NCBI RefSeq assembly: GCF_004364345.1
Contig: NZ_SOCA01000011.1
Span: 58,487 to 122,486 of the forward strand
DNA from: Prosthecobacter fusiformis
GTDB taxonomy: Bacteria; Verrucomicrobiota; Verrucomicrobiia; Verrucomicrobiales; Verrucomicrobiaceae
Reading direction: 5' to 3'
Length of the DNA stretch: 64,000 nt
The notes below the pieces were generated by a model. It had not been told where the DNA came from, made no database searches, and worked only from the letters and a program-made list of their open reading frames with translations. Shown one piece after another: positions 124 through 8,520 of the stretch. A program made the translations under genes and the position numbers. The first letter of the stretch is position 1, and the number at the start of each line of letters is the position of its first letter.

Positions 124-711
124 ATGGCCATCTCCAAAGACCATTCGGGTTGGACTGATCGGGGTTTTCTGCCGCATTATGATCATGCCGAGCTCGTCCA
201 ATCCGTAACTTTCCGGTTGGCGGATTCACTTCCAAAGGAAAAGCTGTTGGAATGGGAACACCTGTTGAAAAGCCTCGATGACCGCGAGCGGATTCGGCAG
301 ATCGAGCTCTATCTGGATCGAGGGAGCGGTTCCTGTGTGCTTCGTCGTCAGGAGTGTGCGGAGATTGTTGAAAAGGCATTGCTCCATTTTGAGGGCCAGC
401 GTTACCAGCTGATTGCTTGGTGCATTATGCCCAATCATGTTCATGTTCTCATGAAGACCTTCATGGGACATCCCCTCGGTAGGGTCGTTCATTCATGGAA
501 GACCTTCACGGCTCGTGAAATCAATAGGCTTCTCGGCCAGTCCGGACCTTTTTGGCAGGAGGATTACTATGATACCTTCATGCGTGATGAAGAGCATCAG
601 TACAATGAAGTTTTATACATCGAGTCCAATCCGGTGAAGGCAGGGCTTGTTGGGAAGGCAGTCGATTGGCCTTGGTCAAGCGCAGCTAGGAAATGGAGGT
701 GGATGACATAG
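124..711 (+). CDS. REP-associated tyrosine transposase (RAYT, Y1_Tnp/IS200-like)
   Basis: A single-strand DNA nuclease of the Y1 (HUH) family. In known cases these enzymes recognise and move REP palindromes rather than a classical insertion sequence. The HUH motif is seen as PNHVHVLMK in the middle of the protein. The family pattern RGFLPHYDH lies near the N-terminus, and the C-terminal helix SNPVKAGLV...WPWSSA is typical of RAYTs. The reading frame is open from a GTG at 79, but the ATG at 124 (MAISKDHSGW) places the family motif at the usual distance, giving 195 residues. The gene is flanked on both sides by copies of one palindromic repeat, the hallmark of a REP/RAYT pair. It looks intact. 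The exact start is uncertain. Confidence 0.88.
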   Translation: MAISKDHSGWTDRGFLPHYDHAELVQSVTFRLADSLPKEKLLEWEHLLKSLDDRERIRQIELYLDRGSGSCVLRRQECAEIVEKALLHFEGQRYQLIAWCIMPNHVHVLMKTFMGHPLGRVVHSWKTFTAREINRLLGQSGPFWQEDYYDTFMRDEEHQYNEVLYIESNPVKAGLVGKAVDWPWSSAARKWRWMT

Positions 712-723
712 GCATGTGGGGGG

Positions 724-5476: not shown

Positions 5477-5549
5477 GGGGAAGGCGGGGAAAAGGACCGG
5501 GGGATGATGTTTTCGTGAACTGGTGTGGTTTTCTTTCAGCGAGAGGGGG

Positions 5550-5955
5550 AGACGGAGTGGTGTGGGGGCTTCGGTGGTGGGCTGGTGGTAGGAGGGCGGG
5601 AGGGGGCTTCGGGGTGGCTTCTGCTCAGGGGACTGAGCAGGCTACTTTTTGGGGAGTGGTGTGGGGTGCTTCGGTGGTGGGTTGGTGGTAGGAGGGCGGA
5701 GGGGGCTTCGGAGTGGCTTCTGCTCAGGGGACTGAGCAGGCTACTTTTTGGGGAGTGGTGTGGGGGGCTTCGAAGGTGGGCTGGTGGTAGGAGGGCGGGA
5801 GGGGGCTTCGGAGTGGCTTCTGCTCAGGGGACTGAGCAGGCTACTTTTGGGGAGTGGTGTGGGGTGCTTCGGTGGTGGGCTGGTGGTAGGAGGGCGGAGG
5901 GGGCTTCGGGGCGGCTTCTGCTCAGGGGACTGAGCAGGCTACTTTTGTGGTGTGG
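5550..5955. repeat. Four-copy ~99-bp tandem repeat, G-rich, with an internal hairpin
   Basis: A unit of 98-100 bp repeats four times. Anchor positions of ctactttt are about 5642, 5741, 5841 and 5939. Each unit holds ggtggtaggagggcgg, ggcttcgg and ctgctcaggggactgagcag; the last is a perfect 8-bp inverted repeat around ggga. The plus strand is strongly G-rich and C-poor with many GGG/GGGG runs, so quadruplex formation is possible. Open frames across it are low-complexity and considered non-coding. The rest of 5294-6040 holds no recognisable gene. Confidence 0.85.
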
Positions 5956-6040: not shown

Positions 6041-7291
6041 TTACTTGGGAAGGATGGAGCGGTCTGCCTGGGCGATTTCTACGCCGTTATCGGCCAGCCG
6101 CTGCTGGACTTCGGCGATGTGCGCCCGGTCGCGGGTCTCGATGGTGCAGAGCACATGCACCCGGGAAAGGTCTGGGCCGGAGAAGGTGCGGTTGTGGACG
6201 ATCTCGGTCACATTGGCACCGGCGGCTGCAAGCACGGCTGAAAGGTGGGCTAGGCCGCCTGGGCGGTCGCTTAGCAGCACATCGAACCGGTAGATGCGGC
6301 CATCGGCAGCGAGGCCGCGCTCGATCACCCGGCTGTGGGCCAAGGGATCAATATTGCCACCCGTGAGTAAAACGACAACACGGCGGCCTGTGAGATCTGG
6401 AAGATGCCCGCCGAGGAAAGCTGCGAGTCCGGCGGCTCCGGCTCCTTCGATCACGCACTTATCCAGCTCAGCCAGCCGCAGCATGGCGAGGGCGAGTTCT
6501 TCCTCCCCGACCATGACCATGCGGTTCACTAAGGGACGGGCGATGGCCAGGGTGTTCCTGCCTGCCTCCGCCACGGCAAGGCCATCGGCCAAGGTGTATC
6601 TGGTGGAGATACGCACGGGACCGTCTGAGGCCAGCCCGGCGGCAAAACAGGCCGCATTGGCAGGCTCCACGCCGATGATTTGCAGGTCCGGTTTGAGCGC
6701 CTGAAGGACGGTGGCGACACCTGCGAGCAGACCGCCGCCGCCGACGGGGACGATGATGGCCTCCGCATCTGGCACCTGCTCGAGGATTTCAAAAGCCAGG
6801 GTGCCCTGTCCGGCGATGACTTGGGGATCATCAAAGGGGTGCACATAGGTCAGCTTCTTTTCTTCAGCCAAGCGGGTGGCCTCGCTGCGGGCTTCATCAA
6901 AAGTATCTCCATGCAGGACGACGGTGGCACCGAACTGGCGGCAGCGGGCCAGTTTTACCAGCGGGGCAAAGCGGGGCATCACGACGGTCACAGGAATGCC
7001 CAATGCGCGCCCATGCCAGGAAAGGCCCAGGGCGTGATTGCCGGCGGAGGCGGCGATGACACCGCGTGAGGACTGTTCCGGCGTCAACTGGGCGAGTGCA
7101 TTGCGTGCGCCGCGCTCCTTGAAACTGCCCGTGCGCTGCAGATGCTCCTGCTTGCAAAAGATGCGTGCTCCGGTCAGTTCACTCAGGGCGGCGGATTCCA
7201 CGCAAGGTGTGCGTGCGATGGCCCCGTTCAGACGCAGGCGCGCGGCCATGATTTCGGAGAGCGAGACGGTGCAGTCGGGGGCGGCTTTCAT
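6041..7291 (-). CDS. ilvA: Threonine ammonia-lyase (threonine dehydratase) with C-terminal ACT domain
   Basis: Converts threonine to 2-oxobutyrate and ammonia, the committed step towards isoleucine; cytoplasmic, PLP-dependent. The PLP lysine is K58 in GSFKERGA, the phosphate-binding loop is VGGGGLLAG (~residues 187-195), and AASAGNHALG is the conserved substrate loop. Residues ~335-410 form one ACT-like regulatory domain (DRPGGLAHLSAVLAAAGANV). At 416 residues it matches the shorter IlvA class, which sequence alone does not cleanly separate from catabolic TdcB. The upstream attenuator rich in Ile codons argues for an isoleucine-controlled biosynthetic role. The start at 7291 lies 34 bases after the T-run of that attenuator. 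Confidence 0.9.
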   Translation of the reverse strand: MKAAPDCTVSLSEIMAARLRLNGAIARTPCVESAALSELTGARIFCKQEHLQRTGSFKERGARNALAQLTPEQSSRGVIAASAGNHALGLSWHGRALGIPVTVVMPRFAPLVKLARCRQFGATVVLHGDTFDEARSEATRLAEEKKLTYVHPFDDPQVIAGQGTLAFEILEQVPDAEAIIVPVGGGGLLAGVATVLQALKPDLQIIGVEPANAACFAAGLASDGPVRISTRYTLADGLAVAEAGRNTLAIARPLVNRMVMVGEEELALAMLRLAELDKCVIEGAGAAGLAAFLGGHLPDLTGRRVVVLLTGGNIDPLAHSRVIERGLAADGRIYRFDVLLSDRPGGLAHLSAVLAAAGANVTEIVHNRTFSGPDLSRVHVLCTIETRDRAHIAEVQQRLADNGVEIAQADRSILPK

Positions 7292-7324
7292 TGTGAAGAA
7301 GGGCAGGGGCGAGCAGGGGGCAAC

Positions 7325-7354
7325 AAAAAAGCCCTGAGTCGTGAAACTCAGGGC
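7325..7354 (-). terminator. Attenuator terminator hairpin upstream of ilvA
   Basis: Minus-strand GCCCTGAGT-N6-ACTCAGGGC (stem bases 7346-7354 and 7331-7339, perfect 9 bp) followed at once by six T (7330-7325). It is an intrinsic terminator placed between the leader peptide and ilvA. Its first arm can alternatively pair with 7400-7407 (8 bp), so it can be switched off. Confidence 0.85.
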
Positions 7355-7391
7355 GGAGGATTAAAAGGCGATTTCTTTGAAAATGGCGCGT

Positions 7392-7439
7392 TTATCCCTG
7401 CCCTGAGAGGGCTCCAATAATGATCACGAGGATCGGCAT
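7392..7439 (-). CDS. Putative ilvA leader peptide (MPILVIIIGALSGQG)
   Basis: A 15-codon frame starting at ATG 7439-7437 and ending in TAA 7394-7392. It contains I-L-V-I-I-I and a further L, so seven of 14 residues after Met are branched-chain. Codons 10-14 overlap hairpin segments 1 and 2 (minus-strand gccct at 7412-7408 and ctcagggc at 7407-7400). A ribosome stalled at Ile codons 6-7 would cover segment 1 and free segment 2 to pair with segment 3 (7354-7347), preventing the terminator. A ribosome at the stop codon covers segment 2, so the terminator forms. This is the classical transcription-attenuation layout. No Shine-Dalgarno sequence is evident, as for many genes here. Confidence 0.75.
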   Translation of the reverse strand: MPILVIIIGALSGQG

Positions 7440-7461
7440 GGAAAGAGGGGAGAGGGAACGC

Positions 7462-7491
7462 ATTCTAAAGGCAGTGTAGTTTGCTAGTAAA
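7462..7491 (-). promoter_or_regulatory. Putative sigma-70-type promoter for the ilvA leader
   Basis: On the minus strand TTTACT (7491-7486), an 18-base spacer and TAGAAT (7467-7462). Transcription would start near 7455, about 15 bases before the leader peptide. A TTGACA at 7505-7500 is also present but too far from this -10. Assigned by eye from consensus only. Confidence 0.4.
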
Positions 7492-7557
7492 GGCTATGGT
7501 GTCAATGCTGGCATGAACGCCGAGAGAGGATTTCGGCCTAACGGATCCTCATTATCC

Positions 7558-8520
7558 TCAATACCTCAGCAGGTCACGCAGGGCGGCGGTGATGCTATTG
7601 GTGGTGGGGCGATGGCTTTTCCAGAGGTTAGGATGGTAGGGGATGGGTGTGTCCTTGGAGTTCAGGCGCATCGGTGGGGCATCGAGCATGTGGAAGGCCT
7701 CACTGCTGACGCGGGCGATGATTTCTGCGGTGACTCCACCCCAGGGGAAGGCCTCGCCGACGGCCAGGAGACGTCCGGTGCGAGAGACGGAGGCAAGGAT
7801 GGTATCCGTATCCATGGGCTTGACACTGCGGAGGTCCACAACCTCCACTTGGTAGCCGTCCATTTGCAGTTCCTCGGCGGATTTCAGCGCTTCATGAAGC
7901 ATGGCGCTGTAGGTGACGACGGTGGCATCTCGGCCAGGGCGGGCGATGCGGGCCTTGCCTATGGGAAGATTATCCCCGAAGCCTTCGGCCTTGAGGTGGT
8001 AATAGAGGAACTTGTGCTCGCAGAAGATGACGGGATCATTGAGCTTAACGCTTTGCAAAAGCATCCAGTAGGCGTCCTCGACGGTAGCGGGGGTGAGGAT
8101 GACGATGCCGGGATAGTGGGCATAGATGCTCTCCATGCTCTGACTATGAAATGGGCCGCTGCCTGCGGTGCCGCCAGAAGGCATGCGGATGGTGATGGGG
8201 CAGGGGGTATTCGTGCGCCAGTAAAGCGTGGCGGCCTGGTTGACGATCTGGTTAAAGCCGACGGATGAGAAATCCGCAAACTGCATCTCAATGATGGGGC
8301 GGGCGCCTTCGATAGCGGCCCCGACGGCCATGCCGATCATGGCATCCTCACTGATGGGGGAATCAAAGACGCGTCCGGGGAATTCGCGGCTGAGATTTTT
8401 AGTGGCTTTGAAAGCCCCGCCGAAGGTGCTGATGTCCTGTCCGTAAAGGAAGACGTTGGGGTCGGAGCGGAGCGCCTCATACTGCGCCTCGCGAATGGCT
8501 TCGAGATAGGTGATACTCAT
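7558..8520 (-). CDS. 2-oxoacid dehydrogenase E1 component, beta subunit
   Basis: 320 residues, the usual length of PdhB/BkdB/AcoB-type subunits. The protein forms the E1 heterotetramer with the alpha subunit and carries out TPP-dependent decarboxylation of a 2-oxoacid. Seen: N-terminal REAQYEALRSDPNVFLYGQD, then FDSPISEDAMIGMAVGAA and EMQFADF, typical of the transketolase pyrimidine-binding domain; GHSQSMES-like contacts (FHSQSMESIYAHYPG); and a C-terminal transketolase-C domain (VVDLRSVKPMDTDTI). Its start overlaps the end of the alpha gene by four bases, so the two are translationally coupled. No E2 or E3 gene is in the window, so pyruvate, branched-chain and acetoin substrates cannot be told apart. 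Confidence 0.85.
   Translation of the reverse strand: MSITYLEAIREAQYEALRSDPNVFLYGQDISTFGGAFKATKNLSREFPGRVFDSPISEDAMIGMAVGAAIEGARPIIEMQFADFSSVGFNQIVNQAATLYWRTNTPCPITIRMPSGGTAGSGPFHSQSMESIYAHYPGIVILTPATVEDAYWMLLQSVKLNDPVIFCEHKFLYYHLKAEGFGDNLPIGKARIARPGRDATVVTYSAMLHEALKSAEELQMDGYQVEVVDLRSVKPMDTDTILASVSRTGRLLAVGEAFPWGGVTAEIIARVSSEAFHMLDAPPMRLNSKDTPIPYHPNLWKSHRPTTNSITAALRDLLRY

Follow-up and report, generated by a model that had tools for sequence, protein, structure and literature searches.

In the window analysed here, a stretch of 64,000 nucleotides of Prosthecobacter fusiformis DNA, the threonine ammonia-lyase gene ilvA is preceded by a short frame with isoleucine codons and by segments able to form alternative hairpins, which a sequence-only reading had taken for a ribosome-mediated attenuator with a branched-chain leader peptide. 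This raises the question of whether the leader controls ilvA and, if so, which amino acid it would sense. Judging from sequence comparison and predicted folds, we propose that the element is very probably an Ile-specific, ribosome-mediated transcription attenuator controlling ilvA.

Table 1. Features of the ilvA leader region (window coordinates; counts refer to the 19 leaders compared)
Feature	Coordinates	Strand	Remarks
Conserved -35 element TTGACA, probable leader promoter	7500..7505	minus	TTGAC(A/T/G) in 19/19 leaders
Putative leader peptide ORF MRSLSPLSMPILVIIIGALSGQG	7392..7463	minus	23 codons plus stop; in-frame ATG in 19/19
Putative regulatory codons ATC ATT ATT (Ile-Ile-Ile)	7416..7424	minus	at least two of the three Ile kept in 18/19
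Segment 1 (GCCCT)	7408..7412	minus	pairs with segment 2 as anti-antiterminator
Segment 2 (CTCAGGGC)	7400..7407	minus	pairs with segment 1 or segment 3
Middle hairpin	7357..7398	minus	predicted within both folds, 19/19; caps the 2:3 helix
Segment 3 (GCCCTGAG)	7347..7354	minus	partner of segment 2 in the antiterminator and of segment 4 in the terminator
Intrinsic terminator, segments 3 and 4 plus T6 tail	7325..7354	minus	pattern scan; 99% paired, compensatory changes
ilvA, threonine ammonia-lyase, 416 aa, predicted regulated gene	6041..7291	minus	TIGR01127

The element is conserved upstream of ilvA

IlvA is the only product of the P. fusiformis genome that exceeds the TIGR01127 cut-off (405 bits against 378.75), and its gene lies downstream of the leader where it had previously been placed. 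Just downstream of ilvA, at positions 5548-5946, a repeat of roughly 100 bp is present in four tandem copies, and every copy contains a short plus-strand hairpin that resembles a terminator.

Four further Prosthecobacter genomes possess an orthologous ilvA (85-92% identical), and the leader was found in all four. A scan of GTDB genomes added 15 ilvA loci (80-87% identical), which belong to Prosthecobacter, Verrucomicrobium, Chthoniobacter flavus and a number of MAGs of the Verrucomicrobiota, and the element was again present in each. One of these loci (L036) is the same as that of one of the four genus genomes, and the comparison comprises 19 distinct leaders, the window's own included. When the upstream regions were aligned, the leader frame, the Ile codons and both the 2:3 and the 3:4 stems proved to be kept, which supports, at the level of sequence, the proposal that ilvA is subject to Ile-sensing attenuation by the ribosome. 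The sequence-only reading had named relatives without the leader frame or the hairpins as the finding that would speak against it; all 19 leaders carry both. The comparison confirmed that the element is real and conserved across the class Verrucomicrobiia, and it is this conservation in relatives that provides independent support for it. On the other hand, an Ile/Leu/Val run followed by a U-run was not found at about 90 other ilvA-like loci, which are either the different ilvA of most genus genomes or genes of 36-48% identity in other phyla.

Start codon, regulatory codons and promoter

The 15-codon frame MPILVIIIGALSGQG described earlier (7439-7392, minus) is present at its place, but it is likely to start further upstream. 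Because an in-frame ATG eight codons (24 nt) before it, at 7463, is conserved, the leader is probably the 23-codon frame. Leader lengths were 19, 22 or 23 codons, and they differed by whole codons only. The Ile run reads Ile-Ile-Ile in 15 leaders, Ile-Met-Ile in two and Val-Ile-Ile in one, while a single leader (L037, Leu-Ile-Met) keeps fewer than two of the three isoleucines and nevertheless retains the RNA structure. We observed no excess of changes at third codon positions of the leader over the other positions; translation is therefore supported by the frame, the start codon and the Ile codons rather than by the substitution pattern. An in-frame ATG throughout, an Ile run in all leaders but one and an apparently Ile-specific target are what one would expect of the leader ORF of a ribosome-mediated attenuator.

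As for the promoter, the hexamers proposed earlier (TTTACT-18-TAGAAT) are present without being conserved; TTGACA at 7505-7500, by contrast, is conserved. Sequence comparison thus supports the TTGACA element as the leader promoter. In all 19 orthologous leaders TTGAC(A/T/G) lies 30-36 nt before the leader ATG, and in many of them a TA-rich hexamer follows about 17 nt downstream, the -10 element of P. fusiformis itself not being obvious. Given this spacing, the transcription start probably lies no more than a few bases from the ATG, and the mRNA would be almost leaderless.

Mutually exclusive folds are predicted in the leader RNA

The three pairings put forward in the sequence-only reading could all be located: the segment 1/2 hairpin GCCCT-CTC-AGGGC (7412-7400, minus), the pairing of segment 3 (7354-7347) with segment 2, and the 3:4 terminator before ilvA, with its stem at 7354-7331 and its T6 at 7330-7325, which a terminator scan also recovered. 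For the 132-nt leader the predicted folding energy is -39.7 kcal/mol, with z = -3.6 relative to dinucleotide shuffles. Measured from the start of the Ile run, segment 2 begins at +17 nt and the stop codon at +30, identically in 19/19 leaders, and a stem with a U-run stands between leader ORF and ilvA in every one, as is required of an attenuator terminator.

Folding the RNA 3' of the Ile codons yielded the 1:2 hairpin, the middle hairpin and the 3:4 terminator in 19/19 leaders, the 1:2 hairpin measuring 4-6 bp and shifting its register by 2 nt between lineages. When the whole leader was folded from the ATG, the terminator again formed in 19/19, while the 1:2 hairpin was absent or reduced in the minimum free energy structure of 5/19. 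RNA lacking segment 1 and truncated ahead of segment 4 was predicted to form the 2:3 helix, capped by the middle hairpin, in all 19. This middle hairpin is compatible with both states and comes in addition to the segments noted earlier. Both the pairing and the predicted folds are consistent with 2:3 and 1:2 being mutually exclusive, as in known attenuators.

The predicted helices are also borne out by covariation, albeit to different degrees. In the terminator stem 99% of cells are paired and two pairs are doubly changed (UA/CG and AU/GC); across 34 leaders, these two pairs carry 24 cells with both sides changed. The 2:3 helix, with 97.7% of cells paired, varies mostly by G-U, and one of its pairs is changed on both sides. 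The true 2:3 and 3:4 partners paired better than all 5000 between-species swaps, in a test in which segment 2 was chosen as the best complement of segment 3 and which thus favours the true 2:3 pairing.

Simulated ribosome positions

A ribosome covers about 12 nt from its A site, and we masked the leader on this assumption, the simulation comprising geometry and masked folding only. With a ribosome at the second Ile codon, both approaches predicted what stalling should bring about: segment 1 was covered, segment 2 was freed, and the 2:3 antiterminator formed in 19/19 leaders. A ribosome at the stop codon would instead cover segment 2, and the untranslated leader was predicted to adopt the terminator fold in 19/19. 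Even when segment 1 is masked, the equilibrium mostly favours the 3:4 pairing by a small margin, and antitermination would thus depend on the order of folding. The two outcomes lie no more than about 4 kcal/mol apart, which would make the decision a kinetic one, like that of classical attenuators.

Alternative explanations

Considering the above results, other origins of the hairpin and of the Ile-rich frame have to be weighed. An intrinsic terminator between two genes on the same strand might merely end transcription of the pyruvate-dehydrogenase-like gene upstream (7558-8520), the frame being a coincidence. We regard this as exceedingly improbable, since in the relatives similarity is lost upstream of TTGACA while promoter, leader, Ile codons and terminator are kept; moreover, the element sits between a conserved promoter and ilvA, and it occurs before ilvA or cimA. 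It is also conceivable that a T-box or a metabolite- or protein-binding leader drives the terminator and that the peptide is incidental, and the terminator and antiterminator folds predicted here are indeed also typical of T-boxes and riboswitches. However, an Rfam search of the window and ten orthologous loci matched no known leader, riboswitch or T-box. Nor did we see a conserved domain of aptamer size; conservation extends instead to an in-frame start, to Ile codons with constant spacing and to segments 1-4. Such a leader is therefore very improbable.

The run I-L-V-I-I-I of P. fusiformis would by itself suit a leader sensing all branched-chain amino acids, like that of enterobacterial ilvGMEDA, and this is how the frame had been read. 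Across the five genomes of the genus, however, codons 4-5 (in the 15-codon numbering) encode LV, MM, LP, IS and LP, and they hold other residues again in leaders beyond the genus, whereas the Ile codons are retained. The lack of conservation at Leu4 and Val5 supports an attenuator that is Ile-specific rather than branched-chain-specific, and a general branched-chain sensor appears improbable.

Distribution of the Ile leader

A covariance model built from the window leader and its relatives scored the window copy, which was itself in the model, at 8e-19; in the rest of the 5.8-Mb genome it found no further copy and nothing better than E 0.4, and the upstream regions of P. fusiformis leuA and ilvB showed no comparable leader. 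Of the 384 genomes searched in the class, 26 gave matches at E <= 0.01 and 20 held up on reading. A search of the phylum gave no convincing match outside the class Verrucomicrobiia. Because both searches filtered strictly and scored only a few candidates in each genome, the counts are lower bounds. Weak matches (E about 1e-4 to 1e-2) were read singly and were mostly unrelated terminators. A weak match at another locus (L148) precedes an elongation-factor-G-like gene and comprises a short frame, MTYMNDRTTIQITRLWPGRRRSV, with a terminator; it may represent another leader type.

In another family of the class (f17), seven genomes have the leader before ilvA-like genes and six have it before cimA. 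The cimA assignment is confirmed in two genomes (TIGR00977, scores of 626 and 644 bits, cut-off 450), and the remaining four genes have N-terminal sequence in common with the confirmed ones. The entry steps encoded by ilvA and cimA lead to isoleucine alone, in keeping with control codons restricted to Ile. In the f17 leaders 27-33 nt separate the Ile codons from the stop codon, and a ribosome there would thus cover segment 2 less well.

In P. fusiformis itself, the region upstream of cimA (C5, about 158805; locus L158) holds a candidate Ile leader frame, MASQPAIFGIRIIIGLLCA*, and almost every cimA in the genus is preceded by a similar frame of 19-20 codons with a conserved I-R-I-I/S. Aligning 20 members of the genus (L166-L185) showed a conserved CGAATTA core, a conserved stem after it, CGGrCTC/GAGTCCG, one pair of which changes on both sides in one sequence, and near-leaderless spacing; no conserved U-run terminator was found in these 20. 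No sequence resemblance to the ilvA leader is evident. At positions 658-720 (plus strand) of the same locus, Rfam reports a match to the Acido-Lenti-1 RNA (38 bits, gathering score 37).

Tentatively, and with somewhat more doubt than confidence, one may imagine a class-wide Ile attenuation regulon in Verrucomicrobiia, with almost leaderless mRNAs, acting on ilvA or cimA, whichever entry step is used, through two or more unrelated kinds of leader, namely the terminator type and a cimA type of Prosthecobacter and its relatives with I-R-I-I/S, the stem and no U-run terminator.

Discussion

From the sequence elements, their conservation, fixed spacing and covariation, and the predicted folds, we infer that the leader responds to Ile as follows. 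Transcription would be initiated from the TTGACA promoter, a few bases ahead of the 23-codon frame, and a ribosome would translate the leader while RNA polymerase transcribes the remainder. If Ile-tRNA is scarce, the ribosome would stall on ATC ATT ATT and cover segment 1; segments 2 and 3 could then pair around the constant middle hairpin, blocking the terminator and allowing ilvA to be transcribed. With plentiful Ile-tRNA, it would proceed another 21 nt to the stop codon and cover segment 2, leaving the 3:4 terminator to form. The terminator would likewise form when no translation takes place and segments 1 and 2 pair.

The comparison with the enterobacterial trp, his, thr, leu and ilvGMEDA attenuators, partly textbook knowledge, brings out a common plan: a short leader peptide rich in the regulated amino acid, 1:2, 2:3 and 3:4 segments, a U-tract terminator and a switch set by ribosome position. 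The ilvA leader differs from them in matching no Rfam family, in its Ile-only codons, in its place before ilvA or cimA, in having almost no 5' UTR, in a middle hairpin present in both states, and in its phylum.

The closest described case, in mechanism and in the missing 5' UTR, appears to be ilvBNC of Corynebacterium glutamicum. Its leader peptide MTIIRLVVVTARRLP is encoded on an effectively leaderless mRNA without ribosome-binding site, and anti-antiterminator, antiterminator and terminator hairpins have been described, with emphasis on Val/Leu control codons (PMC11857589). The two systems share a branched-chain pathway gene, an effectively leaderless mRNA and three hairpin types; they differ in their codons (Val/Leu against Ile) and genes (ilvBNC against ilvA), and the peptides are dissimilar. 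In actinobacteria, leader peptides were predicted before ilvB, leuA, trp and cys operons, several with alternative hairpins (PMC1262725), by a comparative approach akin to ours applied to other genes and another phylum. For Streptomyces ilvB, changes of the control codons were without effect on regulation (PMC1262725), which calls for caution with our prediction.

According to a 2010 survey that added Firmicutes, Proteobacteria and Actinobacteria had for a long time been the only groups in which leader-peptide attenuation was known (PMC2965389). In agreement with the sequence-only reading, which knew of no description in Verrucomicrobiota, our literature search (subscription papers lay outside its scope) found no report of such control in this phylum. 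Our analysis would therefore extend leader-peptide attenuation to Verrucomicrobiota, with conservation across one class. The ilvA leader may also serve as a testable model for codon-reading control on an almost leaderless mRNA, in a class where one Ile leader precedes two alternative isoleucine entry genes, ilvA and cimA.
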